Below, piece by piece: positions 64 through 50,919 of a stretch of 64,000 bases of DNA (its first letter is position 1; each line of letters begins with the position of its first letter). The translations under genes and the position numbers were made by a program. The stretch lies in the NCBI RefSeq assembly GCF_020149765.1, contig NZ_CP083809.1, forward strand, positions 744,001 to 808,000, read 5' to 3'. The notes below the pieces were generated by a model. It saw nothing but the letters and a program-made list of their open reading frames with translations, searched no databases and was not told the origin of the DNA. This DNA comes from Pantoea agglomerans. Its GTDB lineage: Bacteria > Pseudomonadota > Gammaproteobacteria > Enterobacterales > Enterobacteriaceae.

Positions 64-86
64 AAAGACAGATGCAGAACAGAAGG

Positions 87-270
87 AGATCTCCGAGATG
101 CCGCCGCAGGCTGTAACCCTTGAACCCTTGGTTCAAGGTGAATGTGCCGTCGCAACCATCAGGCTTCTCGGACGAACCGAGCATGCTCACAGGTTACAGA
201 GCGCCACACTCTGTTGGTATGAAATATCGGCTCAGGGGACTGGCCCGCTTGCAAACATCTCAGAGAAAAT
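87..270 (-). ncRNA. ssrS: 6S RNA (SsrS)
   Basis: 6S RNA binds sigma70 RNA polymerase holoenzyme by mimicking an open promoter and represses many promoters in stationary phase. The minus strand closely follows the E. coli 6S sequence: the 5' and 3' ends pair (the ATTTTCTCTGAGATG side with the CATCTCGGAGAT side), and the conserved TTGAACCAAGGGTTCAAGG and GAGCATGCTCGGTTCGTCCG segments are present. The predicted length is about 184 nt, the family's usual size. It lies 38 nt downstream of zapA on the same strand, which is the enterobacterial order zapA-ssrS-fau. fau itself would lie to the left of base 1 and is not visible. The ends are approximate, by alignment from memory. Confidence 0.95.
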
Positions 271-27285: not shown

Positions 27286-27738
27286 GTGAAAATTCTCTCT
27301 TTGCGCGACGCGCCGCAGCTGGCTGGTCAGGTAACCGACTGGCTGTGGCGCGCCTTTGACGCGGATAACAGCCGCGATTTTATGGCCAGCGTGGTGGAGA
27401 GTTCGCTGGGCGAGGCGGAGTTTCCCGTCACCTTCGTTGCCGTCGACGACGCGGGCAGGGCGCTGGGTACGGTGGGCTTCTGGCGCTGCGATCTGATCGC
27501 CCGTCAGGATCTCTTTCCCTGGCTGGCTGCGCTCTACGTTGATGAGCGCGCGCGCGGCAGCGGCCTGAGCGTGGCGCTGCAGCAGCATGTGATCGACTAT
27601 GCGCGCCAGCGCGGCCACCGCAGCCTGTGGCTCTGGTCAACTTTCGCGGGCTATTACGAACGCTGCGGCTGGACGCCGGCGGGCGAGGCGCTCGACTATC
27701 CCGCTAAAAAGGTCAGGCTCTACCGGCGCGAGCTTTAG
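27286..27738 (+). CDS. GNAT family N-acetyltransferase
   Basis: This 150-aa protein has the GNAT fold. The acetyl-CoA motif A lies around residues 83-105 (ALYVDERARGSGLSVALQ, with the R-x-x-G-x-S-type loop), and a C-terminal YYERCGW is typical of the family. The substrate is unknown. The start is a GTG at 27286, 8 bp after the lysA stop. The gene is not part of the E. coli lysA-galR interval as I recall it, so it is a lineage addition. Its stop overlaps the galR stop by 4 bp on the opposite strand. Confidence 0.85.
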   Translation: MKILSLRDAPQLAGQVTDWLWRAFDADNSRDFMASVVESSLGEAEFPVTFVAVDDAGRALGTVGFWRCDLIARQDLFPWLAALYVDERARGSGLSVALQQHVIDYARQRGHRSLWLWSTFAGYYERCGWTPAGEALDYPAKKVRLYRREL

Positions 27739-28736
27739 CCCGGCCCGCTTACCGAATGGCGCCGCACCAGCGTCGGGCTGAACATATTGGTCACCTCCGG
27801 CAGCGGCTGCGCGTGGGCCAGCGCCAGCGCCAGCTCCGCCGCCTGCTGCGCCATGGTGACGATGGGATAGCGCACCGTGGTCAGGCGCGGACGCACGTAG
27901 CGCGACACCAGCACGTCGTCGAAGCCGATCAGCGACATCTCTTCCGGCACGCGCACGCCGTTGTCGCTCAGCACCGCCAGCGCGCCGGCGGCCATCGAAT
28001 CGTTATAGCAGGCCACGGCGGTAAAGCTGCGGCCGCGTCCCAGCAGCTCGGTCATCGCCTGCTCGCCGCCCACTTCATCCGGTTCGCCAAAGGTCACCAG
28101 CCGATCGTTGCTGGGCAGGCCGTGCTCTTTCAGCGCGTCGTAGTAGCCCTGCAGACGATCTTCGGAGTCGGAAATCGGGTGGGTCGAGCAGATAAAGGCG
28201 ATATTCTGATGGCCCTGCTGGATAAGGTGGCGCGTCGCCAGCCAGGCGCCGTAGCGGTCGTCAAGGGCGATACAGCGCTGTTCAAACCCCTTCAGCAGCC
28301 GGTTCAGCAGCACCATGCCGGGCATCTGCTTCATCAGCAGCTCCAGCTCGGCGTCGGGAATCTTCTTCGCATGCACCACCAGCGCGGCGCAGCGATGGCG
28401 CATCAGCTGTTCAATCGCCTGACGCTCTTTTTGCTCATTGTGGTAACCGTTACCAATCAGCAAAAAGTTGCCGGTCTGCCCGGCGATCTCATCAACCGCC
28501 TTAACCATTGCGCCGAAAAAAGGGTCAGATACGTCGCCGACCACCAGGCCCAGGGTTTCCGTTGACTGCTGCGCCAGCGCGCGCGCGTTGGCGTTGGGAT
28601 GATACTGCAGCTCCTCCATCGCCTGGCTGACGGCCTGGCGCGAACTCTCGCTGGCCTTAGGCGAATTATTAATTACACGGGACACCGTCGCGACGGAAAC
28701 ACCCGCCAGTCTGGCAACATCCTTAATCGTAGCCAT
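27735..28736 (-). CDS. galR: Galactose operon repressor GalR
   Basis: GalR is a LacI-family dimer that represses gal genes and is released by D-galactose. The 333-aa product is highly similar to E. coli GalR (343 aa). The helix-turn-helix is MATIKDVARLAGVSVATVSR, with the hinge helix near 45-57, and the sugar-binding domain (about 60-330) includes VVGDVSDPFFGAMV and GFDDVLVSRY. The C-terminal tail is about ten residues shorter than in E. coli. The start at 28736 is set by the conserved N-terminus; the frame runs on upstream to 29039 without similarity. A GalR operator lies 17 bp upstream of the start. Confidence 0.96.
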   Translation of the reverse strand: MATIKDVARLAGVSVATVSRVINNSPKASESSRQAVSQAMEELQYHPNANARALAQQSTETLGLVVGDVSDPFFGAMVKAVDEIAGQTGNFLLIGNGYHNEQKERQAIEQLMRHRCAALVVHAKKIPDAELELLMKQMPGMVLLNRLLKGFEQRCIALDDRYGAWLATRHLIQQGHQNIAFICSTHPISDSEDRLQGYYDALKEHGLPSNDRLVTFGEPDEVGGEQAMTELLGRGRSFTAVACYNDSMAAGALAVLSDNGVRVPEEMSLIGFDDVLVSRYVRPRLTTVRYPIVTMAQQAAELALALAHAQPLPEVTNMFSPTLVRRHSVSGPG

Positions 28737-28752
28737 GCCTCGACCTGCTTTA

Positions 28753-28768
28753 GGGAAAACGTTTACAC
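28753..28768. promoter_or_regulatory. GalR/GalS-type operator upstream of galR
   Basis: GGGAAAACGTTTACAC matches the gal operator consensus GTGnAAnCGnTTnCAC at all specified positions except one. It sits between galR and the divergent reductase gene, so it probably mediates galR autoregulation and could also affect the divergent gene. Confidence 0.75.
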
Positions 28769-28914
28769 ATGGCAGCAGTGTTACGGAAAAGGCGGTCTGT
28801 ATCAAGCTGACAGAATGTCTGCGCCGTCGCAAAAAGGGGCAAAACTCCAGGCTTAACCCGGCGAGGGGTCGCATGCTATCCTGCATTTTTCCCTTACCTG
28901 CCGTAAATAAAACC

Positions 28915-31187
28915 ATGAAAAAGCGAGTGCCACATCTGGCGCACTGGGGCGCATTCACCGCCGTTACTGAAAACGATCGCCTGACTGGCTGCGAGCCGTT
29001 CTTCGCCGACGCCGATCCGTCGCCGATGCTGAACACCATTCCCGAGCTGGTCTACTCCGACAAGCGTATTCGGCAGCCGATGGTGCGCCGCTCCTGGCTG
29101 AAGTCGCGCGAAAAAAGCGACCGTACGCTGCGCGGCCGCGAAGATTTTGTTGCCGTCGACTGGGAGACCGCGCTGGATCTGGTGGCGGAGGAAAACCGCC
29201 GCATCCGCGAACGCTACGGCGCCTCCGGCATTTTCAACGGTTCTTACGGCTGGTCGTCGGCGGGCCGCGTCAACCACGCGCGCACCCTGGTGCGTCGCTT
29301 CTATTTTCAGGGCGGCGGCGGCGTCGACCAGCAGGGCAACTACAGCTGGGGCGCGGCGCAGTTCTTCCTGCCCTATGTGATCGGCACCTATATGCCGCTG
29401 ACCGGCCGCGTCACCGACTGGCCGCAGGTGGTAGAGCACGCGGAGATCTTCGTCGCCTTCGGCGGGCTGGCGCTGAAAAATGCCCAGGTGGCGTCAGGCG
29501 GCGCAGGCCAGCACAGCCTGAAGCCGGCGCTGGAGCAGCTGGCGGCCAAAGGCACGCCGGTGATCAATATCAGCCCGATGCGCGACGACTGCCCTGAGTT
29601 TGTTAACGCCGACTGGATCCCGATTCGTCCCAACACCGACGTGGCGCTGATGCTGGCGCTCGGCTACGAAATCGCCCAGCGCAACGCGGTGGACGAGGCG
29701 TTTCTCGCCAGCCACTGCACCGGCTGGCCGCAGCTGCGCGCCTATCTGCTGGGGGAAAGCGACGGCGTCGCCAAAACCGCCGGCTGGGCGAGCCGCATCA
29801 CCGGCATTGCGCCGGAGCGCATTGTTCAGCTGGCAGAGCAGCTGATCGGCAAGCGCAGCTTTATTACCTGCTCCTATTCGGTACAGCGCGCCCATCGCGG
29901 CGAGCAGCCTTACTGGATGATGATTGCGCTCTCGTCGATGCTTGGCCAGCCGGGTCTGCCGGGAGCGGGCTTCTCGTTCGGCCACGGTTCAATGAACAGC
30001 GTCGGCAATCCGCGTCAGGACGGCCCGGCGCCGCTGATGGCCACCGGCCCCAATCCCTCTGGCCTGTCGATTCCGGTGGCGCGCATCAGCGATATGCTGC
30101 TTAATCCGGGCCAGCCTTACAGCTTCCAGGGCGAGACCCTGACCTATCCCGATATCCATCTGGTGCACTGGGCGGGCGGCAATCCCTTCCACCACCATCA
30201 GCAGCTTAACCGGCTGGTAGAGGGCTGGCAGAAACCGGACACCGTGGTGGTGCAGGATATTGTCTGGACACCGGCGGCGCAGATGGCGGATATCGTACTG
30301 CCCGCCACCACCACGCTGGAGCGCAACGATATCGGCGGCTCCTCGCGCGACCGCTTTGTGCTGGCGATGCATCAGGCGATCAGGCCGCAGCACCAGGCGC
30401 GTAACGACTTCGATATTTTCGCCGATCTCGCCGAGCGCCTCGGCTATCGCGAGCAGTTTACCGAGGGGCGCGACGAGCGGCAGTGGATCGAATACCTCTA
30501 CCAGCAGTGTGCGACGGCCCATGCGCGCAAGGGGATAGATTTCCCGGCGTTCGCCGAGTTCTGGTCGCGCGGCTTCGTCGAGATCCCGGAGGGAGGCAAG
30601 CCCTACGTCTTTATGGAGGATTTCCGCGCCGATCCCGCGCGCAACCCGATCAAAACTGCCAGCGGCAAGATCGAGCTTTTCAGCCAGACCATTGCCGATT
30701 ACCAGCTGGCGGATTTCGCCGGTCATCCCGAATGGCGCGAGCCTCAGGAGTGGCTGGGCGCCTCGCTGAGCGAGCAGTTCCCGCTGCATATGATCTCTGT
30801 GCAGCCGTCGGATCGGCTGCACAGCCAGCTTGACGCTACGCCGACGGTGCAGGGCAACAAAACCGCCGGCCATGAAACCCTCTATATGCATCCGCAGGAT
30901 GCAGCGGCGCGCGCTATCGCCGACGGTGAGGTGATTGAGGTGCGTAACGCGCGCGGCGCGATGCTGGCGGGCGTGCGCCTTACCGACGGGCTGACGCCGG
31001 GCGTGGTGATCGTCGCCACCGGCGCCTGGTTCGACCCGGCTTCGGCGCAGAGTGGCAGCCGTTCGACCGCGCGGGCAACCCCAACGTGCTGACGCTGGAT
31101 ATCGGCACCTCGTCGCTGACGCAGGGGCCAAACGCCATGAGCTGCCTGGTCGAGATCAAAAAGCATGTGGATTGCAAAATCGCGTAA
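28915..31187 (+). pseudogene. Molybdopterin S/N-oxide reductase (BisC/TorZ-like), frameshifted near the 3' end
   Basis: The protein belongs to the DMSO-reductase family of Mo-bis-MGD enzymes, closest to BisC/TorZ (biotin or methionine sulfoxide, or TMAO). No twin-arginine signal is seen, so it would be cytoplasmic, like BisC. The Mo-ligand serine region GSYGWSSAG, the FERN-like LERND block and TASGKIELFSQ are intact. The frame from 28915 stops at 31092 after an unrelated tail (725 aa). From 31038 another frame gives GFGAEWQPFDRAGNPNVLT to a stop at 31187, the expected family C-terminus. A single C missing from the CCC run at 31035-31037 explains this; the intact product would be about 757 aa. 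This may be true decay or a sequencing error. Confidence 0.8.
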
Positions 31188-31194
31188 CAAACAC

Positions 31195-31272
31195 ATGGCT
31201 GGTTACATTTTGCCGGACACTGTTGCGTTTAGGTGATGGCAGCCCGTCTCGCGGCCTTGTTACAGTCAGGGT
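31195..31272 (+). promoter_or_regulatory. Upstream control region of Omr-type sRNA 1
   Basis: The stretch before the sRNA start includes GGTTACATTTTGC, which resembles an OmpR half-site (GGTTACAT), and a GTTGCGTTT element also present before the second copy at about 33251. This shared upstream sequence suggests common control. OmpR binding is inferred from the known regulation of omrA and omrB. Confidence 0.5.
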
Positions 31273-31348
31273 CCCAGAGGTATTGATGGGTGAACATCAA
31301 TAGATTTTCTTGATTACACCAACCTGCGCAGATGCGCAGGTTTTTTTT
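31273..31348 (+). ncRNA. OmrA/OmrB-type small RNA, copy 1
   Basis: OmrA and OmrB are Hfq-dependent sRNAs induced by EnvZ-OmpR that repress outer-membrane protein, ompR and curli-regulator mRNAs through their conserved 5' end. Here the 5' end CCCAGAGGTATTGAT, then GGTG, is that of E. coli OmrA/B. A short central hairpin follows (ATCAA...TTGAT). The 3' end ACACCAACCTGCGCAGATGC with its GCGCAGG stem and nine T residues is the conserved terminator. The length is about 76 nt. Which E. coli copy it corresponds to is not clear; the 3' GCGCAGATGCGC loop is OmrB-like. Confidence 0.92.
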
Positions 31349-31410
31349 TGCCTGACGCGCCGATTACGAACTGATACACAGTTTTCCTGTTAACGGCGTA
31401 GCGCTTTCTT

Positions 31411-31416
31411 TATAAC
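31411..31416 (+). promoter_or_regulatory. Candidate -10 box for the FtsI-like gene
   Basis: TATAAC lies 45 bp before the start codon, with TGTTAA 17 bp further upstream (31388-31393) as a weak -35. The sRNA terminator just before it means this gene needs its own promoter. Confidence 0.35.
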
Positions 31417-31460
31417 TGCTCGCGTGGATATTTTTTTACTTTTCTTTGCAGCGGATTGCC

Positions 31461-33188
31461 ATGCCCCGGATAAAAAAACTACTGGGAAAAGACCAGATCA
31501 AAGCCCCGTTTAACCCGTTTCGTTTTCGCCTGATCTGCCTTGGCGTGCTGACCTGCATGGTGGTGCTGATGGCGCGCATCGCCGATCTGCAGTTTCTGAA
31601 CCAGCCGATGCTGGAGCATGAGGCGGATCAGCGCTCGCTGCGCACCGTTACGCTGCCGACCAACCGCGGCACCCTGCTGGATCGCAACGGCGAAGCGCTG
31701 GCGCTCTCGGTGCCGTCGCGCGACGTTATCGCCGATCCGATGCGCGTGCTGGAGGCGAATCCCGACTTCCTTAGCGCCAAATGGGCCTATCTGGCCTCGG
31801 CGCTCAATATGCGTCCCGAGCAGATCGCCGCGCAGATCACCGCCAATCCGAAACGCCGCTTTCTCTATCTGGGCCGCAAGGTCGAGCTTGGCATCGCCAA
31901 AGATATTGCCGAGCTGCACCTGAAGGGCATAAGCGAAGTCTATGACGACAGCCGTTTCTATCCCATGAGCGAGGCGGCCGCGCCGCTGATCGGCATCGTC
32001 GGCGCGGACAATATCGGCCTGAACGGGCTGGAGAAGGGCTACGACAAGATTTTGCAGGGCGTGCCGGGCAAAGAGGTGTACCGCCAGGATGCCGCAGGCC
32101 ACATTATTTCCATGCTGAGCTATACGCCGCCGACCCAGCCGCCGACGGTGCAGCTCAGCATCGACAAGTTCGATCAGTACACTCTTTACAGCAAGCTGCG
32201 CGACGGCGTGCTGCTCAACAAAGCGGACTCCGGCGCGGCGGTGCTGGTGAAGATCGACACCGGCGAAATTCTCGGTATGGCCTCATATCCGTCGTTTAAC
32301 CCCAACAACTACGACGGCGCCACGCCGGCGCAGATGCGCAACGCGGCGATCAACGACAGCTACGAGCCGGGTTCAACGGTGAAACCGCTGGTGGTGATGG
32401 AGGGGCTGGAGCGCCATCTGGTGCGCCCCGATTCGGTGATCGACACCACCCCCTACCGGGTCAACGGCCACCTGATCCGCGACGTTGGCCACTGGCCGCG
32501 CCTGACCATGACCGGCATTCTGCAAAAATCGAGCGACATTGGCGTCTCCCATATTGCGCTGGCGATGCCTGCCGAGGCGCTGGTCAATACCTATCAGGCC
32601 TTTGGCCTCGGCAAACCCACCGGCCTGGGGCTGACCGGCGAGAGCGTTGGCTACTTTCCGGCGCACCGTCAGCGCTGGGCCGATATCGAGCGCGCGACCT
32701 TCTCCTTCGGCTATGGGCTGCGCGTGACGCCGCTGCAGATTGCGCGTGAATACGCCACGCTCGGCTCGTTCGGCGTTTACCGCCCGCTGTCGATTACCCG
32801 CGTGACGCCGCCGGTGCTCGGCAAGCAGGTGGCGAACCCGGAAACGGTAAAAGAGGTGGTGCATATGCTGGAGAGCGACGTGCTGCCGGGCGGCACCGGT
32901 ATTAAAGCTGCGGTGCCGGGCTACCGGCTGGCGACCAAAACCGGTACGGCGGAGAAGATGGGCGACAGCGGCAAATATGACGGCGGCTATATCAACTATA
33001 CCGCTGGCGTTGCGCCTGCCAGCCATCCAGAGGTGGCGCTGGTGGTGATGATCAACCATCCCACCGCCGGCGATCACTTCGGCGGCTCGGTTGCCGCGCC
33101 GATCTTCGGTAATATCATGGGGCCGGTGCTGAAGCATATGAATATCGCGCCGGACGCTATCTACAGCAAGCCTTCAGATAAATCTTAG
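31461..33188 (+). CDS. FtsI-like class B penicillin-binding protein (PBP3 paralogue)
   Basis: This 575-aa monofunctional transpeptidase is highly similar to E. coli FtsI (588 aa). An N-terminal membrane anchor (about 27-45) is followed by the pedestal domain with NRGTLLDRNG and a transpeptidase domain. The active-site Ser305 lies in GSTVKPL and Lys493 in TKTGTAEK. The second motif reads Ser357-Ser-Asp359, where FtsI has SSN. The gene is outside the dcw cluster, so it is a paralogue such as the alternative PBP3 described in Salmonella, not the main division enzyme; the equivalence is inferred. The ATG at 31461 gives MPRIKKLLGKDQIK. It sits between two Omr-type sRNAs on the same strand. Confidence 0.9.
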   Translation: MPRIKKLLGKDQIKAPFNPFRFRLICLGVLTCMVVLMARIADLQFLNQPMLEHEADQRSLRTVTLPTNRGTLLDRNGEALALSVPSRDVIADPMRVLEANPDFLSAKWAYLASALNMRPEQIAAQITANPKRRFLYLGRKVELGIAKDIAELHLKGISEVYDDSRFYPMSEAAAPLIGIVGADNIGLNGLEKGYDKILQGVPGKEVYRQDAAGHIISMLSYTPPTQPPTVQLSIDKFDQYTLYSKLRDGVLLNKADSGAAVLVKIDTGEILGMASYPSFNPNNYDGATPAQMRNAAINDSYEPGSTVKPLVVMEGLERHLVRPDSVIDTTPYRVNGHLIRDVGHWPRLTMTGILQKSSDIGVSHIALAMPAEALVNTYQAFGLGKPTGLGLTGESVGYFPAHRQRWADIERATFSFGYGLRVTPLQIAREYATLGSFGVYRPLSITRVTPPVLGKQVANPETVKEVVHMLESDVLPGGTGIKAAVPGYRLATKTGTAEKMGDSGKYDGGYINYTAGVAPASHPEVALVVMINHPTAGDHFGGSVAAPIFGNIMGPVLKHMNIAPDAIYSKPSDKS

Positions 33189-33300
33189 AAAAATCAGCAT
33201 GTAACCAGGTAGCGAACTTATTCATACCTGGTTTCATTTCCCCGAATTCCGTTGCGTTTTCGCGCTGTTTTGTCCCGCCGCAGAGTGCGAGGATAACAGT

Positions 33301-33409
33301 CCCAGAGGTATTGATAGGTGCGAAAACGCGCTGCACCATGCAGCGGCATCCGCAAGGATAATCCACCCTGTTTATTGCACCAACCCACGCGGATGCGTGG
33401 GTTTTTTTT
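33301..33409 (+). ncRNA. OmrA/OmrB-type small RNA, copy 2
   Basis: The 5' end CCCAGAGGTATTGATAGGTG is that of OmrB. The 3' end GCACCAACCCACGCGGATGC with the GCGTGGG stem and nine T residues is an OmrA/B terminator in which the stem bases have changed in a compensating way. The middle is longer than usual, with two possible hairpins: GCTGCACCATGCAGC and ATCCGCAAGGAT (GNRA-type loop). The predicted length is about 109 nt against 80-90 nt in E. coli. GATAACAGT directly upstream parallels GTTACAGTCAGGGT before copy 1. Confidence 0.92.
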
Positions 33410-33935: not shown

Positions 33936-33967
33936 ATTACTTTCACCTGCTTATGATGAGAAGAACT

Positions 33968-35104
33968 ATGCGCCTGAAACTCCTTTCTGCCAGCGTAGTG
34001 TTTTTACTGGCGGCCTGCGATCAGGGAGGCGGCCAGCCTGCGGCCTCCAGCGTGCCGCAAGTGGGCGTCACCACGGTAAACAGCCAGCCCGTAACGCTGC
34101 TGACGCAGCTCCCCGGCCGCACTAACGCGGTGAAAACGGCTGAGGTGCGCCCGCAGGTCAGCGGCGTGGTGCAGAAGCTGCTGTTTACCGAAGGCGGCGA
34201 AGTGAAGGCGGGGCAGCCGCTCTACCAGATCGATCCGGCCACCTATAAAGCGGCCTATGACAAAGCGCTGGCGACCTGGCAGAACGACGCCATGGTCGTT
34301 AAGCGCTATCAGCCGCTGGCAGCGGCGCACGCCATCAGCCAGCAGACCTACGACGACGCCGTCGCCGCCGAGCGCACCGCCAAAGCTGACGTCGAGACCG
34401 CCAAAGTCAACCTCGACTACACGCTGGTGAAAGCGCCAATAGCCGGGCATATCAGCCGCTCGCTGGTCACCGCCGGCGCGCTGGTCACCAACGGCCAGAC
34501 CGACTATCTCGCCACCATTCAGCAACTCGATCCGATCTACGTCGACGTCAGCGAATCGGTCGCCGATCTGCTGCGCCTGCGTCGCGCCATGGCGCAGGGC
34601 AAGCTGGCAAAGGTGGACGACAACACCGCCGCCGTGAAGCTGCAGCTGGAAGATGGCAGCGCCTATCCGCTGGAGGGCAAGCTCGCCTTCTCTGAGGTGA
34701 ACGTCAGCGAAACCACCGGCACTGTAGTGCTGCGCGCCGTTTTCCCCAATCCGCATAACGAGCTGCTGCCCGGCATGTACGTGCATGCCATTCTGCCGCA
34801 GGGGGTGCAGCAGCAGGGCATTCTGCTGCCGCAGGAGGCGATCATGCATGACACCAAAGGGCAGCCCTACGTTTACGTCGTCAAAGGGGACAGCAGCGTC
34901 GAACAGCGCAGCATTACCACCGGCGAGATGGTGAAAGGAGACTGGCTGGTCAACAGCGGCCTGAAGAGCGGCGAGCAGGTGATCGTGAATGGTCTGCAAA
35001 ACGTGCGCAGCGGCAGCAAGGTCAAGGCCGTGGCCGCCACCACTCAGGATACGCCTGACGCAGGCAGCGTCAGCCTGTCGATGACCGATCCGTCGGCCCA
35101 GTAA
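33968..35104 (+). CDS. RND efflux periplasmic adaptor (AcrA/MexE-like lipoprotein)
   Basis: This 378-aa membrane fusion protein is a predicted lipoprotein (signal ending LLAACDQ). It shows the lipoyl half-motifs RPQVSGVVQKLLF and VKAPIAGHISRS flanking a short helical hairpin, then beta-barrel and membrane-proximal domains (LLPGMYVHAIL). It links the inner-membrane pump to the outer-membrane channel. The start at 33968 sits 4-5 nt after GAGAAGAA; another ATG 15 nt upstream is less likely. It is the first gene of a complete adaptor-pump-channel operon; the pump starts 9 bp later. Confidence 0.93.
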   Translation: MRLKLLSASVVFLLAACDQGGGQPAASSVPQVGVTTVNSQPVTLLTQLPGRTNAVKTAEVRPQVSGVVQKLLFTEGGEVKAGQPLYQIDPATYKAAYDKALATWQNDAMVVKRYQPLAAAHAISQQTYDDAVAAERTAKADVETAKVNLDYTLVKAPIAGHISRSLVTAGALVTNGQTDYLATIQQLDPIYVDVSESVADLLRLRRAMAQGKLAKVDDNTAAVKLQLEDGSAYPLEGKLAFSEVNVSETTGTVVLRAVFPNPHNELLPGMYVHAILPQGVQQQGILLPQEAIMHDTKGQPYVYVVKGDSSVEQRSITTGEMVKGDWLVNSGLKSGEQVIVNGLQNVRSGSKVKAVAATTQDTPDAGSVSLSMTDPSAQ

Positions 35105-35113
35105 GGAGAGGTC

Positions 35114-38100
35114 ATGTCTACATTCTTTATCAAGCGTCCGATTTTCGCCTGGGTTGTGGCGATCATCGTGATGCTGGTCGGCGCCATCGCCGCGCTGAAC
35201 CTGCCGGTTAATCAGTATCCCGATATTTCGCCGCCGGCGGTGTCGATCTCGGTAACCTATCCAGGCGCCAGCGCGGAAACCACACAGAACACCGTGGTGC
35301 AGGTGATCGAACAGCAGCTTAACGGGCTGGACGGCCTGCGCTATCTCGAGTCGAGCAGCGCCAGCGACGGCAGCGCGCAGATCATCGCCACCTTTAACCA
35401 GGGCATCAACCCCGATATCGCTCAGGTGCAGGTGCAGGACCGCGTCTCGCTGGCCGAGTCTCAGCTTCCTTCCGACGTCACCCAGCAGGGCATCCGCATC
35501 CGCAAGTACCAGAAGAACTTTATGATGGTGATCGGCCTGATCTCGAAAGACGGCAAGCTGAGCAACAGCGATCTGGCGGATATGCTGGTGTCGAAGCTGG
35601 AGGATCCCATCTCGCGCACCAAAGGCGTAGGCGACTTTATGGTGCTGGGCTCGGAGTATGCGATGCGCATCTGGCTCGATCCGGCGAAACTCTACAAATA
35701 TAACCTGATGCCGAGCGACGTCAGCACCGCCATCAGCAACCAGAACGTGCAGGTGTCGTCCGGCTCGCTCGGCGGCCTGCCGACCATTCCCGACGCCAAA
35801 ACCAGCGCCACTATTCTCGGTAAGTCGCGCTTCACCACGGTGAAGCAGTTTGAAAACGTGCTGCTCAAGGTCAACAGCGACGGCGCGCAGATCCGCCTGA
35901 AGGATGTCGCCAGCGTGGCGCTGGGGCCGCAGAGCTACACCATCGACTCGATCATGAACGGCAAGCCCTCCGCCGGCATTGCGCTGCGCCTGGCGACCGG
36001 CGCCAACGAGCTAGATACCGCCAACGCGGTGCGCGCCACTATCGCCTCGCTGAAGGATGCGCTGCCGGACAACGTCGAGGTCACCTACCCCTACGACACC
36101 TCGCCGGTGGTGAGCGCCTCGATCGAAGAAGTGGTGAAAACCCTGATCGAAGCGATCGTGCTGGTTTTCTTCGTGATGCTGATCTTCCTGCAGAATCTGC
36201 GTGCCACGCTGATCACCACCATGGTGGTTCCGGTGGTGCTGCTCGGCACCTTCGGCATTCTTGCCGCCTTCGGCTACAGCGTAAACACCCTGACGATGTT
36301 CGGCATGGTGCTGGCGATAGGGCTGCTGGTGGATGACGCCATCGTGGTGGTAGAGAACGTCGAACGCGTGATGCATGAAGAGCGGCTCGATCCAGAAGCC
36401 GCCACCATTAAGTCGATGCAGCAGATCCAGGGCGCGCTGTTCGGCATCGCGCTGGTGCTCTCGGCGGTGCTGCTGCCGATGGCCTTTTTCTCCGGCTCGA
36501 CCGGCGTGATTTATCGCCAGTTCTCTATCACCATCGTGTCGGCGATGGCGCTCTCGGTGCTGATGGCGCTGATTTTCACCCCGGCGCTCTGCGCCACGCT
36601 GCTGAAGCGCGCCTCGGCGGAGCATAAAACCACCGGCCTGGCAGGCTGGTTCAACCGCCATTTCGACAGTGGCACGCTGCACTACCAGCGCGGCGTCAGC
36701 AAAGTGATTTCGCGGCGCGGCCTGTTTATCGTGATCTATCTGGCGATCGTCGGCGTCACCGGCTTCCTCTTCACCCGCGTGCCGACCACCTTTCTGCCCG
36801 ATGAAGATCAGGGGCTGATGATGGTGCAGGTGACGCTGCCGGTGAACGCCTCGTCGCAGCGCACGCAGCAGGTGCTGAACGACCTCAACGCCTACCTGCA
36901 AAAGAACGAAGCCTCGGTGGTCGCCACCATGTTCGGCGTCAACGGCTTTAACTTTGCCGGACGCGGGCAGAACAGCGGCATGGCCTTTGTGCGCACCAAA
37001 GACTGGAGCGAGCGGACGCAGAGCGGCCAGAGCGTCAAGGCGCTGGCGGCGCGCATCAGCGCCCATTTCGCCAGCTACCCGAACGCCAGGATCTTTGCCA
37101 TGGTGCCGCCTGCGGTGATGGAGCTGGGCAACGCCACCGGCTTCGACTTCTATCTGCAGGATACCGCCGGGCACAGCCATCAGCAGATGATGGACGCGAC
37201 TCATCAGTTCGTGCAGCTGGCGAACCAGGATCCGCGTCTGGCGCAGGTGCGCATGAACGGCATGGAAGATGAGCCGATGTTCCAGCTGGAGATCAACGAC
37301 GAACGCGCCAGCGCGCTCGGCCTCAGCATGACTGACATCAATAACACGCTATCGGTGGCCTGGGGATCCAGCTATATCGACCAGTTTATGTACAACGGCC
37401 GCGTCAAGCAGGTCTACCTGATGGGCAAGGCGGCGTCGCGCGTCACGCCGGAAGATCTCAACAAGTGGTATTTCCGCAACAGCAGCGGAACCATGGTGCC
37501 GTTCTCCGCCTTCGCCAGCGGCAAATGGGTCAGCGGCTCGCCACACTTTGAACGCTTCAACGGCATGACCGCAGAGGAGATACAGGGCTCGCCGGCGGCG
37601 GGCTACAGCAGCGGTGAGGCGATGAAGGCGGTTGAAGCGATCGCGGCGAAGCTGCCGAAGGGCTTCCGCGTGCAGTGGTACGGCATCTCCTATGAGGAGC
37701 AGGCGTCTGGCTCGCAGACCACGCAGCTCTATGCCATCTCGATCCTCGTGGTGTTTCTCTGCCTGGCGGCGCTCTATGAGAGCTGGTCGATCCCGCTGTC
37801 GGTGATCCTGGTAGTGCCGCTCGGCATTCTCGGCACCATCAGCGCGGTGCTGCTGCGCGGCCTGCAGAACGACGTCTTCTTTCAGGTCGGGCTGCTGACC
37901 ACCGTCGGACTGGCGGCGAAAAACGCCATCCTGATCGTCGAGTTCGCCAAAGAGCTACACGAGCGCGAAGGCAGAACCCTGGTCGAGGCGGCGGTCGAGG
38001 CGGCGCGGCTGCGTATCCGACCCATCATCATGACCTCGATGGCCTTTATTCTCGGCGTGCTGCCGCTGACGATATCCAACGGCGCGGGCGCGGGCAGTCA

Positions 38101-38251
38101 GCACTCTATCGGCACGGCGGTGGCGGGCGGGATGATTACCGCCACCTTCCTCGCCATCTTTTTTGTTCCCATGTTCTATGTGGTGGTGGCGCAACTCTTC
38201 TCACGTAAGAAGAGCAACGCGGCCGCTGAGGAAATAAATCATGATCGTTAA
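35114..38251 (+). CDS. RND multidrug efflux permease (HAE1, AcrB/AcrD-like)
   Basis: This 1045-aa inner-membrane proton/drug antiporter has twelve helices with two large periplasmic loops. The proton-relay aspartates are Asp407 and Asp408 in [17 protein letters not shown], and the transmembrane 10 lysine lies in LAAKNAILIVEFAKE. The opening MSTFFIKRPIFAWVVAIIVM is typical of AcrB homologues. Closeness to AcrB, AcrD or other HAE1 pumps cannot be settled by eye, and substrates are unknown. Its 3' end overlaps the outer-membrane factor gene by 11 nt. Confidence 0.94.
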   Translation: MSTFFIKRPIFAWVVAIIVMLVGAIAALNLPVNQYPDISPPAVSISVTYPGASAETTQNTVVQVIEQQLNGLDGLRYLESSSASDGSAQIIATFNQGINPDIAQVQVQDRVSLAESQLPSDVTQQGIRIRKYQKNFMMVIGLISKDGKLSNSDLADMLVSKLEDPISRTKGVGDFMVLGSEYAMRIWLDPAKLYKYNLMPSDVSTAISNQNVQVSSGSLGGLPTIPDAKTSATILGKSRFTTVKQFENVLLKVNSDGAQIRLKDVASVALGPQSYTIDSIMNGKPSAGIALRLATGANELDTANAVRATIASLKDALPDNVEVTYPYDTSPVVSASIEEVVKTLIEAIVLVFFVMLIFLQNLRATLITTMVVPVVLLGTFGILAAFGYSVNTLTMFGMVLAIGLLVDDAIVVVENVERVMHEERLDPEAATIKSMQQIQGALFGIALVLSAVLLPMAFFSGSTGVIYRQFSITIVSAMALSVLMALIFTPALCATLLKRASAEHKTTGLAGWFNRHFDSGTLHYQRGVSKVISRRGLFIVIYLAIVGVTGFLFTRVPTTFLPDEDQGLMMVQVTLPVNASSQRTQQVLNDLNAYLQKNEASVVATMFGVNGFNFAGRGQNSGMAFVRTKDWSERTQSGQSVKALAARISAHFASYPNARIFAMVPPAVMELGNATGFDFYLQDTAGHSHQQMMDATHQFVQLANQDPRLAQVRMNGMEDEPMFQLEINDERASALGLSMTDINNTLSVAWGSSYIDQFMYNGRVKQVYLMGKAASRVTPEDLNKWYFRNSSGTMVPFSAFASGKWVSGSPHFERFNGMTAEEIQGSPAAGYSSGEAMKAVEAIAAKLPKGFRVQWYGISYEEQASGSQTTQLYAISILVVFLCLAALYESWSIPLSVILVVPLGILGTISAVLLRGLQNDVFFQVGLLTTVGLAAKNAILIVEFAKELHEREGRTLVEAAVEAARLRIRPIIMTSMAFILGVLPLTISNGAGAGSQHSIGTAVAGGMITATFLAIFFVPMFYVVVAQLFSRKKSNAAAEEINHDR

Positions 38252-39638
38252 TATTCGCTGGACGCTGCCGCCGCTGGCTCTGCTGCTTACGGCCTGTAGC
38301 TTACAGCCTGAATACCATCGTCCGGCGATGCCGGTAGAGACGAGCTACGACCAGCCGACGCCGGTCGGCAACGTGGCGGATCTGCCGTGGCAGAGCTTCT
38401 TTACCGACGCCGGCATGCGCCAGCTGATCGCGCTGTCGCTGCAAAACAACCGCGATCTGCGCGTCGCGGCGCTCAACGTCGAGCAGGCGCGCGCCACGGT
38501 GCAGGTCAACCGCGCCGCGCTGCTGCCGTCGATCAGCGCCACCGCCAGCCAGACCTCGGCGCACGAGCCGGCCAATCTCTACAACACCAAAACCACCGGC
38601 GCGGTGACCTATCACGAGCTAAACGCCGGGCTGGGCGTCACCTCGTGGGAGCTCGACTTCTTCGGCCGTCTGCGCAGCCTGAGCAACGAGGCGCAGGAGC
38701 AGTATCTCTCCACCGAGGCGACCGAGCGCGCCACGCGTATTTCGCTGATCGCCCAGGTGGCGTCGGCCTGGCTGACGCTCTGTTCCGATAACGATCTGCT
38801 GCATCTGGCGCAGCAGACCGCGCAAAGCCAGCAGAAATCGTACCAGCTGACGCAGCTCAGCTATCGCGGCGGGGTGAGTAGCGATCTGGACGTGGCGCAG
38901 GCGGAGAGCACGGTGCGCAGCGCCGAGGCGGACGTGGCGAGCTACACGCGGCAGGTGCGCCAGGATGTGGACGCGCTGCGCTTGCTGGCGGGCGCCGATC
39001 TACCGGTCGATCTGCTGAAAAACGCCACGCTGAACAGCCGCTGGGACTTCCCGGCGACGCCGGCTGGGCTGCCGTCCGATCTGCTGACGCGCCGCCCGGA
39101 CATTATCGCCGCCGAGCATACGCTGAAGGCGGCCAACGCCAATATCGGCGCAGCGCGCGCCGCCTTTTTCCCCAGCATCTCGCTGACCACGTCGGGCGGC
39201 TCGACCAGCAGTTCGCTGGGGCATCTGCTGGAGGGCGGCACCGCTTCCTGGTCTTTTGTGCCCTCCATCAACCTGCCGATCTTCGACGGCGGCGTTAACC
39301 AGGCCAACCTGGATATCGCCCATATCGAGAAGCGCATCGAGGTTGCTAACTATGAGAAGGCGATCCAGACCGCATTTAAAGAGGTGAACGACGCGCTGGC
39401 CGGACAGGACACCTGGCAGGATCAACTGGCGGCCCTGGAAAAAGAGGTAGCGGCGAACCAGCGCGATTACGACTATTCTGAATTGCGCTACAAGCAAGGC
39501 GTTGACAACTATCTGAATGTGTTGGTGGCGCAGCGTTCGCTCTATAGTGCGCGCCAGGCGTGGATCGCCGCGCGTCTGGGCCAGCTAAACCAGAAAATTA
39601 CGCTGTATGAAGCGCTGGGCGGCGGCTGGAAAGCCTGA
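38241..39638 (+). CDS. Outer-membrane efflux lipoprotein (NodT/OprM family)
   Basis: This 465-aa outer-membrane factor carries the lipobox LLTACSLQPEY and repeated TolC-like helical segments, including EQARATVQVNRAALLPSISA and the second-repeat LLTRRPDIIAAEHTLKAANA. It forms the trimeric exit duct for the adjacent RND pump, which in E. coli AcrAB is provided by unlinked TolC. The ATG at 38241 overlaps the pump gene, implying coupled translation. It is followed by a terminator 91 bp downstream. Confidence 0.93.
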   Translation: MIVNIRWTLPPLALLLTACSLQPEYHRPAMPVETSYDQPTPVGNVADLPWQSFFTDAGMRQLIALSLQNNRDLRVAALNVEQARATVQVNRAALLPSISATASQTSAHEPANLYNTKTTGAVTYHELNAGLGVTSWELDFFGRLRSLSNEAQEQYLSTEATERATRISLIAQVASAWLTLCSDNDLLHLAQQTAQSQQKSYQLTQLSYRGGVSSDLDVAQAESTVRSAEADVASYTRQVRQDVDALRLLAGADLPVDLLKNATLNSRWDFPATPAGLPSDLLTRRPDIIAAEHTLKAANANIGAARAAFFPSISLTTSGGSTSSSLGHLLEGGTASWSFVPSINLPIFDGGVNQANLDIAHIEKRIEVANYEKAIQTAFKEVNDALAGQDTWQDQLAALEKEVAANQRDYDYSELRYKQGVDNYLNVLVAQRSLYSARQAWIAARLGQLNQKITLYEALGGGWKA

Positions 39639-39728
39639 TTTTTCTTAACGAAACCCTTACGGTTTGCCGATGGAAAAATAGCCGCGCTTTCGCGGATAAT
39701 ACGCGAAGTGATAATTCAAAGACTCAAT

Positions 39729-39755
39729 AATCCCCTGAAAAAAAGGGGATTTTTT
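39729..39755 (+). terminator. Intrinsic terminator between the two efflux operons
   Basis: An 8-bp stem (AATCCCCT/AGGGGATT) with a loop of A residues is followed by TTTTT. It ends 20 bp before the mdtA start, so it separates the two pump operons or attenuates readthrough into mdtABC. Confidence 0.88.
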
Positions 39756-39774
39756 CCTTTTTACTCCAGGCAAG

Positions 39775-41013
39775 ATGTTAACCATGACTAATGCGTCCCG
39801 CTCTTCCCGTTCCCGCTGGCTTAAATGGCTGCTGCTGTTAATCCTGATGGTGATTATTGCCGGCGTCGTCTGGCGCGTGCTGCCGTTCGGCAAAGGGCAG
39901 GGGGCGATGCCGCCCGGCGGACGCCACGCGGGACGCGGCGGGCCGCCGGACATGGCGATGATGGGCGGCGGCGCCACCCTGGTGCACAGCGGCGTGGCGA
40001 CCACCGCCGACGTGCCGGTCTACCTGAACGCGCTCGGCACGGTGATTCCCAACGCCAGCGTCACCGTCACCAGCCGCGTCGACGGCCAGCTGGAGAAGGT
40101 CTATTTCACCGAAGGGCAGAAAGTGGAGGCGGGGCAGCTGCTGGCGCAGATTGACCCGCGCAGCTTCCAGGCGACGCTGAATCAGTATCAGGCTGAGCTG
40201 AGCGAAAATCAGGCGCTGCTGAAAAGCGCCGAGCTGACGCTGGCGCGCTACCGCAAGCTCTACGCGCAGGACTCGCTGGCGCGTCAGGACCTCGACACCC
40301 AGACTGCCACCGTCGGCCAGTATCGCGGCGCGGTGGCCGCTGACCAGGCGCAGATCGCCAGCGCGAAGCTGAGCATCGAGTATGCGCGCATCACCGCGCC
40401 GGTCAGCGGCCGCGTCGGGCTGCGGCTGGTGGACCCGGGCAATATGGTGCAGAGCTCCAGCACCACCGGCCTGGTGACCATTACCCAGATGCAGCCCGCC
40501 GCTGCAACCTTTAGCGTGCCGCAGAGCCATATCCCCGAGCTGATCAAGGCGCTGCACAGCGGCCAGGCGCTGCCGGTCACCGCGTTCGACCAGGACAACA
40601 GCCGCGCGCTGGCGCAGGGCGAAGTGAAGTTCATCAGCAACCAGATCGACACCAGCACCGGCACCGTGGCGCTGAAGGCGACCTTCGCCAACGAGGATGA
40701 GGCGCTCTACGCCAACCAGTTCGTTAATCTGCGTTTGCAGACCCGCACCCTGAAAGGGGCGACGGTGATCCCGTCGCAGGCGCTGCAGCTGAGCAGCGAC
40801 GGCAGCTTTGTCTTCCTTATCAATAAAGACAACAGCGTGACGCGCAAAGCGGTCTCCGCCGGCCCGGCGTTCGGTGACGACAAGCAGGCGATCCTCAAGG
40901 GCGTTGAACCCGGCGATCGCCTGGTGACCGAAGGCATCGATCGCCTGACCAACGGCAGCAAAGTCGCGCTGGCGGATGAGACGCAACCGACCGCAACCGC
41001 CGAGGCAAAATGA
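39775..41013 (+). CDS. mdtA: MdtA-like RND adaptor subunit
   Basis: This 412-aa membrane fusion protein has an N-terminal transmembrane anchor (about 15-35) rather than a lipobox, then a Gly/Pro/Met-rich linker ([20 protein letters not shown]). Lipoyl halves are [14 protein letters not shown] and [14 protein letters not shown]. It matches E. coli MdtA, the adaptor of the two-permease MdtBC pump. The ATG at 39775 is kept with AGG 4 nt upstream; ATG 39784 is the alternative. The stop overlaps the mdtB start (ATGA). The E. coli partner genes mdtD and baeSR are not present. Confidence 0.92.
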
Positions 41014-44000
41014 ACCCGTCACGCCTGTTTATCCTGCGCCCGGTCGCCACCATCCTGCTGATGGTGGGCGTGCTGGTCGCCGGCATTTTCGCCTATAAAT
41101 TTCTCTCTACCTCGGCGCTGCCGCAGGTGGACTACCCGACGATTCAGGTTACCACGCTCTATCCCGGCGCCAGCCCCGACGTGATGGCTTCGTCGGTCAC
41201 CTCGCCGCTGGAGCGTCAGCTGGGGCAGATGGCGGGGCTGAGCCAGATGAGCTCCACCAGCTCCAGCGGCTCCTCCATCATTACCCTGAAGTTCGGCCTC
41301 GATCTCTCGCTCGACGTGGCGGAGCAGGAAGTGCAGGCGGCGATTAACGCTGCGAATAATCTACTGCCGAGCGATCTGCCCAATCCGCCGACCTATAAAA
41401 AGGTCAACCCGGCGGACAGCGCGGTGATCACCCTGGCGGCCAGTTCAGATAACCTGCCGCTGACCCAGGTGCAGGATCTGGTCAATACCCGCGTGGCGCT
41501 GAAGCTGTCGCAGATCTCCGGCGTCGGCATGGTGACGCTGGCGGGCGGCCATCAGCCAGCGATCCGCGTGCAGATGAACCCGACGGCGCTCGCCGCCCAT
41601 CATCTGACGCTGGAAGACGTTAATACGCTGATTAGCAACAGCAACGTCAACGGCTCGAAGGGCGGCTTTGACGGCAAATATCACTCGGTGACCATCGACG
41701 CCAACGACCAGCTGCGCACCGCCGACGAGTACGGCAACCTGATCCTCACTTACCAGAACGGCGCGGCGCTGCGCCTGAAGGATATCGCCCATATCGAGCA
41801 GGGGCCGGAGAACAGCTTCCAGTCCGCCTGGGCCAACAACAGCCCGGCAATTGTTATCAGCGTACAGCGCCAGCCGGGCGCCAACGTGATCCAGGTAGTG
41901 GACAACATCAAGGCGGCGCTGCCGACCCTGCAGGCCGCGCTGCCGGACGGCGTGAAGATGACCATTCTCTCTGACCGCACCCAGACCATCCGCGCCTCCA
42001 TCAGCGACGTGCAGTTCGAGCTGATGCTCTCCATCGCGCTGGTGGTGATGGTGACCTTCCTGTTTCTGCGCAACGTGGCGGCGACGCTGATCCCCAGCGT
42101 GGCGGTGCCGCTGTCGCTGGTGGGCACGTTCGGCGTAATGTATCTGGCGGGCTTCAGCCTCAATAACCTGTCGCTGATGGCGCTGACCATCGCCACCGGC
42201 TTTGTTATCGATGACGCTATCGTGGTGGTAGAAAATATTTCGCGGCGGCTGGAGGAGGGCGAAACCCCGATGCAGGCGGCGCTGAAAGGGTCGCAGCAGA
42301 TCGGCTTCACTATTATCTCGCTGACCTTCTCGCTGATTGCGGTGCTGATCCCGCTGCTGTTTATGGGCGACGTGGTGGGGCGGCTGTTCCGCGAGTTTGC
42401 CATCACGCTGGCGGTGTCGATTCTGGTCTCAATGCTGGTGTCGCTGACCCTGACGCCGATGCTGTGCGCCTACCTGCTGCGCCATATCCCGCCGGAGCGG
42501 CAGTCGCGCTTTGCGCGCAAGGGCGGCGAGCTGTTCGACAAGCTGATCCGCGGCTACGATCGGCTGCTGACGGTGGTGCTCAACCACCAGAAGCTGACGC
42601 TGCTGGTGGCGCTGGCGACCTTTGCGCTGACCGCGCTGCTCTATATGGCGGTGCCGAAAGGCTTCTTCCCGACCCAGGACACCGGGCTGATCCAGGGCAT
42701 TACGCTGGCGTCGCAGGATGTCTCCTTTAGCGAGATGGCGAAGCGTCAGCAGGCGCTGGCGAAGGTGGTGCTGGCGAATCCGGCGGTAGAGAGCGTCTCT
42801 TCCACTATCGGCATTGACGGCAACAATACCAGCCTCAACAGCGGGCGGCTGCAAATCAACCTGAAGTCGTTTGACCAGCGCGACGACAAGGCCGACGCGG
42901 TGATCAAACAGCTGCAGCAGGCGGCGAAGCAGGTGGTGGGCATCCAGCTCTTTATGCAGCCGGCGCAGGATCTGACGGTTAACGACCAGGTGACGCCGAG
43001 CCAGTATCAGTTCACCCTCGACGACGCCGACAGCGAAAACCTGGTGACCTGGTCGCCGCAGCTGGTGGCGGCGCTGCAGAAGCGGCCGGAATTTAACGGT
43101 GTGGTAAGCAATTTGCAGGATCAGGGGCGCGTGGCCTATGTCGAACTGAACCGCGATAAAGCGGCGCGCTACGGCATTACCGCGTCGGACGTCGATACTG
43201 CGCTTTATAACGCCTTTGGCCAGCGTCTGGTGTCGACTATCTTTACCCAGTCGAACCAGTATCGCGTGGTGCTGGAGGTGGCGCCCGCTTATCAGCAGTC
43301 GCCCGCCTCTTTTGAGGATGTCTATCTGCAGCCCGCCACCAGCGACAGTTCGACGACAGGCTCAACCTCCTCTTCGACCTCGACCTCGACCTCGACGTCA
43401 ACCTCCGCCAGCGACAGCACCAGCAGCGGTATGGTAAAGCTGACCGCTGTCGCCACTATCCACCAGCGCGCCGGTTCGCTGATGCATATGCGCCTGAATC
43501 AGTTCCCGGCGGTGATGATCTCCTTTAACCTCAACAGCGGCTACTCGCTGGAGGATGGGCAGAAGGCGATCGCCCAGGTGCGGCAGCAGCTGCAGATGCC
43601 GTCGAGCATTACGCTGCGCTACCAGGGCGAAACCTCCGCCTTCCAGAGCGCCACCGGCAACACCCTGTGGCTGATCCTCGCGGCGCTGCTCACCATGTAC
43701 GTGGTGCTGGGCATTCTCTACGAGAGCTTTATTCACCCGGTGACCATCCTCTCCACGCTGCCGTCGGCGGCGGTCGGCGCGCTGCTGACGCTGCTGCTGG
43801 CGGGCAGCGAATTTAGCCTGATTGCGCTAATTGGCGTGATCCTGCTCATCGGTATCGTGAAGAAGAACGCCATTATGATGATCGACTTTGCGCTGGAGGC
43901 GGAGAACAAGCAGCACCTCAGCCCGCGCGAGGCGATCCATCAAGCCTGCCTGCTGCGCTTTCGTCCGATTCTGATGACCACCATGGCAGCGCTGCTCGGC

Positions 44001-44201
44001 GCGCTGCCGCTGATGCTGGCGTCGGGATCGGGCGCGGAGCTGCGCCAGCCGCTGGGGCTGGTGATCGTCGGCGGCTTGATCGTCAGCCAGGTGCTGACGC
44101 TCTTCTCCACGCCGGTGATCTATCTCTGGTTTGACGCGCTTGCGCAGCGCGGCAACGCCTGGGTGAAACGCCGCCAGCAGCAGTCGCGAGGCGCGTCATG
44201 A
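41010..44201 (+). CDS. mdtB: MdtB-like RND permease with a Ser/Thr-rich insertion
   Basis: MdtB is one of the two RND permeases that form the heteromeric MdtBC pump (bile salts and novobiocin in E. coli). The 1063-aa product (E. coli 1040) has [19 protein letters not shown] with the paired Asp and the C-terminal [19 protein letters not shown]. Residues about 778-807 are an almost pure Ser/Thr stretch encoded partly by a hexanucleotide repeat. It lies in the second periplasmic loop and accounts for most of the extra length. The gene overlaps mdtA and mdtC by 4 bp each. Confidence 0.92.
43374..43403 (+). repeat. TCGACC hexanucleotide microsatellite in mdtB
   Basis: Three perfect TCGACC units are followed by TCGACG and TCAACC, encoding alternating Ser-Thr. 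Copy number changes would alter the length of the protein without changing the frame. Confidence 0.9.
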
Positions 44202-48768: not shown

Positions 48769-50919
48769 ATGTTGTTTAGATTTTTTCGTCTACTCTGCCG
48801 TCTGTTGTGGCGGGTGGAACTGCGCGGCGACGCCGCCGCGCTGCATCAGGACAAAGTGCTGATCGCGCCGAACCATATGTCTTTTCTTGACGGCGTGCTG
48901 CTGGCGCTGTTCCTGCCGGTCAGGCCGGTTTTCGCCGTTTACTCCGCCGTGAGCGAGCGGTGGTATATGCGGCTGGTGAAGTCGCTGATCGATTTCGTTC
49001 CACTCGATCCAACCCGGCCGATGTCGATCAAGCAGCTGGTGCGGCTGATCGACAGCGGCCGCCCGGTGGTGATCTTCCCGGAAGGGCGCATTACCGTCAC
49101 CGGCTCGCTGATGAAGATCTACAGCGGCGCGGGTTTCGTCGCCGCCAAATCCCAGGCCAACGTGGTGCCGATGCGCATCGAGGGGGCCGAGTACACCCCT
49201 TTCGGCCGCCTGGCGGGGGTCTTTAAGCGCCGTCTTTTTCCCCGTATCACCCTGACCATCCTGCCGGCGACGCGCATTCCGATGCCGGAGGCGAAGCGGG
49301 CGCGCGACCGGCGCCAGCTCGCGGGCGAGCACCTGCACCATATTATGATGGAGGCGCGCATGGCGGTGCGCCCGCGCGAAACGCTCTATGACGCCTTCCT
49401 TAACGCCCGCACCCGCTACGGCGCGTTTAAGCCCTGCATCGAAGATGTCAATATGCAGCCCGACAGCTATACCGGGCTGCTGAAAAAGGCGCTCGGCGTC
49501 GGGCGCATTCTTGAGCGCTACAGCCAGCCGGGTGAGATTGTCGGCCTGCTGCTGCCCAACGCGACGGTGACCGCGGCGGCAATTCTCGGCGCGTCGATGC
49601 GCGGGCGCGTGCCGGCGATGCTTAACTACACCGCCGGGGTCAAGGGCATGGGCGCGGCGCTGACCGCGTCGCAGGTGAAAACCGTCTTTACCTCGCGCCA
49701 GTTTCTGGAGAAGGGCAACCTCTGGCATCTGCCGCAGGGGCTGACCGGGGTTGAGTGGATCTATCTGGAGGATCTGCGCGACACCGTGACCACCCAGGAC
49801 AAGCTCTGGATCCTGGCACACCTGCTGCTGCCGCGCCGCGCGCAGGTGGCGCGCCAGCCGGAAGAGGCGGCGATGGTGCTGTTCACTTCCGGCTCGGAAG
49901 GCAACCCCAAAGGCGTGGTGCATTCCCATAAAAGCCTGCTGGCGAACGTGGAGCAGATCCGCACCGTGGCGGACTTTACCCCGCGCGATAAGTTTATGTC
50001 GGCGCTGCCGCTGTTCCACGCCTTCGGTCTGACGGTGGGGCTGTTTACGCCGCTGATGACCGGCGCGCAGGTATTTCTCTACCCCAGCCCGCTGCACTAT
50101 CGCATCGTGCCGGAGCTGGTCTACGACCGCAACTGCACCGTGCTGTTCGGCACCTCGACCTTTCTCGGCAACTATGCGCGCTTTGCCGCGCCTTACGATT
50201 TCGCCCGCGTGCGCTATGTGGTGGCGGGCGCGGAGAAGCTGCAGGAAGCGACGCGCCAGATCTATATGGAGAAGTACGGCATCCGCATTCTTGAGGGCTA
50301 CGGCGTGACCGAGTGCGCGCCGGTGGTGGCAATCAACGTGCCGATGGCGGCGAAACCGCACACCGTGGGCCGTATTCTGCCGGGCATGGATTCGCGTCTG
50401 ATGTCGGTAGAGGGCATCGAGCAGGGCGGTCGGCTGCAGCTGCGCGGGCCGAACATCATGAAGGGCTACCTGCGGGTTGAGAACCCCGGCGTGCTGGAAG
50501 CGCCCGCCGCCGACAACGGCGAAGGGCAGCTGGAGGCGGGCTGGTACGATACCGGCGATATCGTCAGCTTTGACGAAGGCGGCTTCTGTCAGATTCAGGG
50601 GCGCGCCAAACGCTTCGCCAAGATTGCCGGTGAGATGGTGTCGCTGGAGAGCGTCGAGCAGATCGCCCTGAAAGCGTCGCCGGAGAAGCAGCACGCGGCG
50701 TCGCTGCGCGCCGACGGCAACCGCGGCGAAGCGCTGGTGCTGTTTACCACCGACGCCGAACTCAAGCGCGACGCGCTGCAGAAAGCGGCGCGCGAGCTGG
50801 GCGCGCCGGAGCTGGCCGTGCCGCGCGATATCCGCGTGATGAAACAGCTGCCGATGCTGGGCAGCGGCAAGCCGGACTATGTCAGCCTGAAACAGCTGGC
50901 AGAAGAGGAGCAGGCATGA
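48769..50919 (+). CDS. aas: Bifunctional acyl-ACP synthetase/2-acyl-GPE acyltransferase Aas
   Basis: Aas recycles lysophosphatidylethanolamine on the inner membrane: it activates fatty acid on bound ACP and transfers it to the 1-position. The 716-aa product (E. coli 719) has the N-terminal PlsC-type acyltransferase with His36 and Asp41 in NHMSFLD and the [10 protein letters not shown] motif. A C-terminal AMP-binding synthetase domain carries [16 protein letters not shown] and [14 protein letters not shown]. It overlaps lplT by ATGA; the transporter brings in the lysolipid substrate. Confidence 0.96.

Follow-up and report, generated by a model that had tools for sequence, protein, structure and literature searches.

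A divergent second PBP3 gene between the omrB- and omrA-type sRNA genes of Pantoea and its relatives

By their sequences, Pantoea, Erwinia, Mixta and relatives carry a divergent second PBP3 gene (here ftsI2) in the short spacer between the sRNA genes omrB and omrA, downstream of galR/bisC and upstream of aas, the outcome being three units, omrB, ftsI2 and omrA, on one strand. We analysed a window of 64,000 nucleotides from Pantoea agglomerans, its genome and related loci, and we give a probability of roughly 0.58 to the explanation that ftsI2 arrived a single time between omrB and omrA and that all three units are under EnvZ/OmpR. The gene would have entered once, in the common ancestor; omrA would later have been lost in some lineages, and genes gained between omrA and aas in others. 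EnvZ/OmpR would control the sRNAs as it does their family, and ftsI2 would answer to it via its own conserved activator-type promoter together with read-through of the omrB terminator, so that under low pH or osmotic stress an alternative septal transpeptidase might be made while the sRNAs reduce outer-membrane proteins. The private promoter is missing in Mixta, where the only visible route is transcription that comes in from omrB or, further upstream, from bisC. The layout, one of known parts, is real and apparently undescribed: a search of an incomplete library of open-access literature found no account of omr genes flanking a PBP gene, in agreement with a sequence-only reading of the window, by which the arrangement is not known to have been described.

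The locus and its spread

The features of the window discussed below are as follows (strand in brackets).

27735..28745 (-): galR, the left landmark (NF008002 GalR 693 bits, cut-off 557; 85% identical to E. coli GalR)
28735..31092 (+): bisC-like frame for a molybdopterin S/N-oxide reductase (TIGR00509 at 886.5 bits, short of the cut-off of 1017.55)
31188..31272 (+): omrB-type promoter region with a conserved GGTTACATTTTGC...CTGTTGCG block (promoter profile omrB-type 25.3 versus omrA-type 10.4 bits)
31273..31348 (+): OmrB-type sRNA with intrinsic terminator (RF00079 75.7 bits; terminator-like site)
31368..31394 (+): activator-like box GAACTGATACACAGTTTTCCTGTTAAC, candidate ftsI2 promoter element (pattern in 56 of 62 loci with Omr upstream, best 80 of 85 stretches)
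31411..31416 (+): predicted -10 TATAAC of ftsI2 (conserved columns in an alignment of 32 leaders)
31461..33188 (+): ftsI2, FtsI-like class B PBP paralogue (ATG at 31461; motifs STVK, SSD and KTG; PDB FtsI chains, E 6e-178)
33203..33233 (+): inverted repeat AACCAGGTA...TACCTGGTT after ftsI2 (right arm overlaps the omrA promoter block)
33216..33300 (+): omrA-type promoter region (promoter profile omrA-type 33.5 versus omrB-type -1.5 bits)
33301..33409 (+): OmrA-type sRNA with intrinsic terminator (RF00079 67.6 bits; terminator-like site)
48769..50913 (+): aas, the right landmark (tblastn with E. coli Aas, 73%)

The sequence-only reading had recognised two Omr-type sRNAs on one strand, flanking an FtsI-like gene, and this was borne out: an Rfam covariance-model search (RF00079, gathering score 40) matched 31273-31348 (E 8e-13) and 33301-33409 (E 8e-11), both on the plus strand around ftsI2, and no other site across the 4.84 Mb genome. 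The two copies have identical 15-nt 5' ends, and each closes with a 9-pair stem and a T run; a terminator scan of the region counted 3 terminator-like sites where shuffles gave 2.3, and it is therefore the Rfam match that carries the evidence for the sRNAs. They lie 2,028 nt apart, start to start, and not at the tandem spacing of about 200 nt (two copies lay less than 400 nt apart in 16 of 21 comparison loci), which is a matter of layout, not of family membership. The window also holds a 6S RNA gene (86-269, minus strand, 129 bits).

The E. coli locus has the order galR, omrB, omrA, aas, and both sRNAs are transcribed in the direction away from galR, in keeping with the tandem position between galR and aas given in the sequence-only reading; the pair of the window lies in the same interval and orientation, with lysA and galR to the left of the bisC-like gene. 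An RND-pump (efflux) cluster (33953-44201) separates omrA from aas in the window. Among the 77 loci described below (best 80 of 85 stretches), the aas match starts at most 2.2 kb from the ftsI2 start in 12, eight with omrA between and four without (one degraded locus, L079, is not counted), so the old interval has been kept and has taken up insertions. In the Pantoea-labelled loci L014, L015, L017-L020, L061 and L066, eight in all, omrA is closely followed by aas. By-eye comparison showed the bisC-like frame to be interrupted near its 3' end (31030-31190): it stops at 31092, and relatives continue to the equivalent of about 31186 in another frame, indicating either an interrupted gene or a sequencing error.

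The locus set, restricted to close relatives and to the best 80 of 85 matching stretches, comprised 77 loci. None of its 11 Kosakonia and Kluyvera loci had an Omr gene in the expected places; among the other 66, Omr lies just upstream of ftsI2 in 62 and also just downstream in 37 (best 80 of 85), so the arrangement in the galR-aas interval is conserved in related genomes, and it is kept in at least six named genera. No upstream Omr was seen by pattern in four (best 80 of 85 stretches), of which L054 stems from a metagenome assembly that also yielded L075, and L074, L078 and L079 look partial or degraded; L074 retains the downstream copy, and, by the covariance model, the L078 genome has two Omr genes and the L079 genome none. 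One locus with the upstream copy only (L025) belongs to a genome (G010) whose second Omr lies about 11 kb away. Within the window's own genus, 60 genomes searched with filters that can lose weak matches gave two Omr genes in 54, one in four and none in two, the latter being 2.4 and 1.4 Mb in size; the spacing was 1.9-2.25 kb in 52 of the 54 two-copy genomes, 1.8 kb in one and 11.2 kb in one. Across a wider sample of the family, Omr was present in 66 of 119 genomes, 22 of which possess a member of the PBP clade (at least 62% identity), beside Omr in 6 and away from it in 16.

The PBP and its putative promoter

The product of ftsI2 is a full-length FtsI-like transpeptidase (NF011685, 682.8 bits, under that model's cut-off of 737); it is 53% identical to the canonical FtsI encoded elsewhere in the genome and, among the matches listed, 98-99% identical to proteins of Pantoea latae, P. 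septica and P. piersonii. A quick tree of 73 rows with a midpoint root, containing no Salmonella or Klebsiella protein by name, separated the PBP of the window and 52 further rows by a long branch (1.69 to one side of the root; SH-aLRT 100) from canonical FtsI (7 rows) and the paralogues from the cspC islet (13 rows). The gene cspC was found in all 13 fetched loci of the latter paralogues. SSD replaces SSN in 13/13 cspC-islet rows and in 44 of the 53 rows of the window's clade (the pattern matched neither in nine), and SSN is found in all seven canonical rows. The PBP3SAL islet of Salmonella is located between rlmA and cspC (according to the accessible part of PMC5826704), so the PBP of the window is probably not its orthologue; orthology with PBP3SAL, first expected, was dropped because this quick tree places ftsI2 outside the cspC-islet clade. 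OmpR dependence is reported for PBP3 paralogues of Salmonella and is suggested by genetic data for Klebsiella (PMC11834469, PMC13251458, as far as these texts were available); with the PBP of the window outside the cspC-islet, PBP3SAL-type clade, this dependence cannot be carried over by orthology. The Kosakonia and Kluyvera proteins nest inside those of the Erwiniaceae, which suggests that ftsI2 was transferred outward to these two genera.

The ftsI2 gene is preceded by a block, TGAWACACAGTTT..CTGTTA, whose distance to a TATAA-like -10 is 18 nt in 52 of the 54 measured loci (best 80 of 85 stretches); this box looks like an activator site placed directly against a weak -35. Reading it as a palindrome was abandoned because its left arm varies in Erwinia. 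Neither at the predicted ftsI2 site nor at the two Omr genes did a sigma-70 consensus scan report a promoter. Scoring with an ompF/ompC matrix did not raise the ftsI2 box above shuffles and missed the window's omr promoters as well as its positive controls, E. coli omrB (p 0.29) and omrA (p 0.93); the best-site p values of the ftsI2 leader (0.71), of omrB (0.65) and omrA (0.58) in the window, and of 21 other leaders (0.035 to 0.96, one below 0.05 and away from the box) are to be read with these failed controls. Such a failure fits the statement, in the part of PMC3945435 available, that OmpR targets share no strong consensus. With the porin promoters of the same genome as a yardstick, no clear match to the box was seen by eye.

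The box also occurs upstream of ftsI2 in all three Kosakonia loci (L051, L056, L062), where Omr is absent. The notion that it was lost only where Omr lies upstream was discarded, as the six loci without the box had been drawn from those with Omr, and all eight Kluyvera loci have neither box nor Omr in the fetched flanks; another promoter must therefore serve ftsI2 there. Besides Mixta, three loci with Omr upstream (L020, L028, L036) lack the block. In L063 (about 5784-6000), some 120 extra bases lie between box and start codon. The more distant members L080-L094 show other common stretches upstream of their ftsI2-like genes, e.g., ACTTTCTTACAAACTGCAAT, which look like OmpR sites and may be regarded as candidates. 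The inverted repeat behind ftsI2 (33203-33233) folds and shows paired changes among some Pantoea loci (by eye, with no statistics), and it is absent or weak in several relatives; it is possibly a 3' hairpin marking the end of the ftsI2 mRNA.

Shared OmpR control of ftsI2 and the sRNAs is a fair hypothesis. Against the whole proposal stand the clade placement of the PBP, the OmpR matrix and sigma-70 scans that did not pick out the ftsI2 site, the mixed body-only assignment of the sRNAs (below), the loss of the box that is not tied to Omr, and the 16 of 22 clade members away from Omr. A neutral neighbourhood, in which the PBP gene landed in a permissive spacer with its own regulator, unrelated to OmpR, and the linkage has no functional meaning, is a possibility that we take seriously and yet doubt. 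It gains from those dispersed clade relatives, from Kosakonia, which retains the box without Omr, and Kluyvera, which has neither, from the OmpR matrix, which did not decide, and from base pairing between Omr and ftsI2, which in 27 loci did not go beyond shuffles (median p 0.44; the three loci at 0.05 or below share no site), and there is no sign that Omr regulates ftsI2 directly by pairing. The genome G130 also speaks for a neutral neighbourhood, its two Omr genes being separated by a large ORF of an unrelated kind (in L111, 2071-7442, the insert contains an ORF of 1104 aa). However, the arrangement has been retained in at least six named genera, and in Mixta, where the private promoter is gone and the gene is under selection, transcription through or within omrB is what remains.

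Transcription in Mixta and the assignment of the two sRNA copies

All eight Mixta genomes have one Omr, and the ATG of ftsI2, preceded by an AAGG stretch resembling a ribosome site, follows the T run of the omrB terminator by 15-22 nt; the ftsI2 block and -10 are absent. Most of the eight loci end inside the ftsI2 gene; for the full genes of L021, L022 and L027, pairwise dN/dS was 0.019, 0.040 and 0.031, i.e., these three are under strong purifying selection. Since the gap after the terminator leaves no room for a promoter, we infer that the ftsI2 transcripts of Mixta must either cross the omrB terminator or start inside omrB. Read-through of the sRNA terminator would be the simplest explanation, and the gene appears to depend on transcription running through the first sRNA. 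A cryptic promoter inside omrB, serving ftsI2 in place of read-through, we consider unlikely: any promoter has to lie upstream of the short gap, and the middle of the omrB body is A+T-rich, but no sigma-70-like match was found in L021 5780-6010 (0, against 0.3 in shuffles), a weak negative because the scan misses the window's Omr promoters, too. More speculatively, the omrB terminator might work as a gate, an OmpR-driven transcript either ending as the sRNA or reading on into the ftsI2 mRNA, this being the only supply in Mixta and one backed up by the private promoter in Pantoea and Erwinia; the sRNA gene of Mixta would then have become the leader of a cell-division gene. We rate this idea as tentative.

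The galR-proximal copy of E. coli is here presumed to be omrB. Profiles were trained on 14 tandem loci, separately for the copy nearer galR and the copy nearer aas, the promoter being taken as -85 to -1; L108 and L110 were excluded because the copies in each seem to stem from a recent duplication within the lineage. By promoter, all 63 upstream copies were omrB-type and all 40 downstream copies omrA-type, the window included, and promoter and body combined gave the same split (63/63 and 40/40; best 80 of 85 stretches in both cases). Body-only profiles sorted as expected in 45 of 63 upstream and 32 of 40 downstream copies (best 80 of 85 stretches); a leave-one-out control on the training loci (28/28) applies to these body-only profiles. 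Of the excluded loci, L108 sorts as expected by promoter, and the second copy of L110 scores omrB-like; the single-copy loci L114 and L115 were ambiguous. The naming of the E. coli copies agrees with the 82 and 88 nt that PMC10342277 gives as Omr lengths. The complete sorting by promoter makes it most likely that the PBP gene came to lie between two already existing sRNAs, within the omrB-omrA pair of the galR-aas interval. The sequence-only reading had proposed instead a duplication of the whole promoter-sRNA unit around the gene, and the likeness of the upstream regions on which it drew is real but is the ordinary similarity of omrB and omrA promoters, found in E. coli as well; despite the identical 5' ends and the mixed body-only result (18/63 upstream and 8/40 downstream copies not as expected, best 80 of 85 stretches), such a duplication is very unlikely and was rejected, because the promoter profiles split the copies fully along the E. 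coli omrB/omrA line and both copies are present in E. coli already, in the same order.

Comparison with known systems

The arrangement joins two OmpR themes that have been studied separately, the sRNAs that tune the outer membrane and the spare PBP3 enzymes used for cell division in acid. Transcription of Omr in Yersinia is OmpR-dependent and increased by acid and sucrose (PMC10342277), and both OmpR-dependent transcription and Hfq binding of OmrA/OmrB are reported for relatives (PMC10342277, PMC6749038; both as far as available). A published sample, by its own list, lacks Pantoea and counts its one 'Erwinia' (carotovora) with the Pectobacteriaceae; the genomes described here, in at least six named genera, are an exception to it. 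Mixta is a natural case in which to see whether the terminator of an sRNA can act as a gate for an mRNA.

Compared with the E. coli locus (aas-omrA-omrB-galR), the RNA family, order, orientation, promoter types and outer landmarks are the same, whereas the pair of the window is split by a PBP gene of 1.7 kb, and omrA and aas are also apart, with the stretch of the RND-pump cluster between them. The OmrAB of Erwinia amylovora (PMC4070566) and Pantoea ananatis (PMC6749038) belong to the same family and were found there by sequencing as Hfq-dependent RNAs; in the parts available, these papers treat OmrAB as one sRNA, unlike the split pair of the window, and a word count gave no occurrence of 'penicillin' in their main text. 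PBP3SAL of Salmonella and PBP3PARA (ftsI2) of Klebsiella are likewise second FtsI-like PBPs beside a canonical one, the latter likened here by description. The cspC-islet group, to which PBP3SAL belongs by location, shares SSD in place of SSN with the PBP of the window, which nevertheless falls into another clade and occupies another place in the genome.
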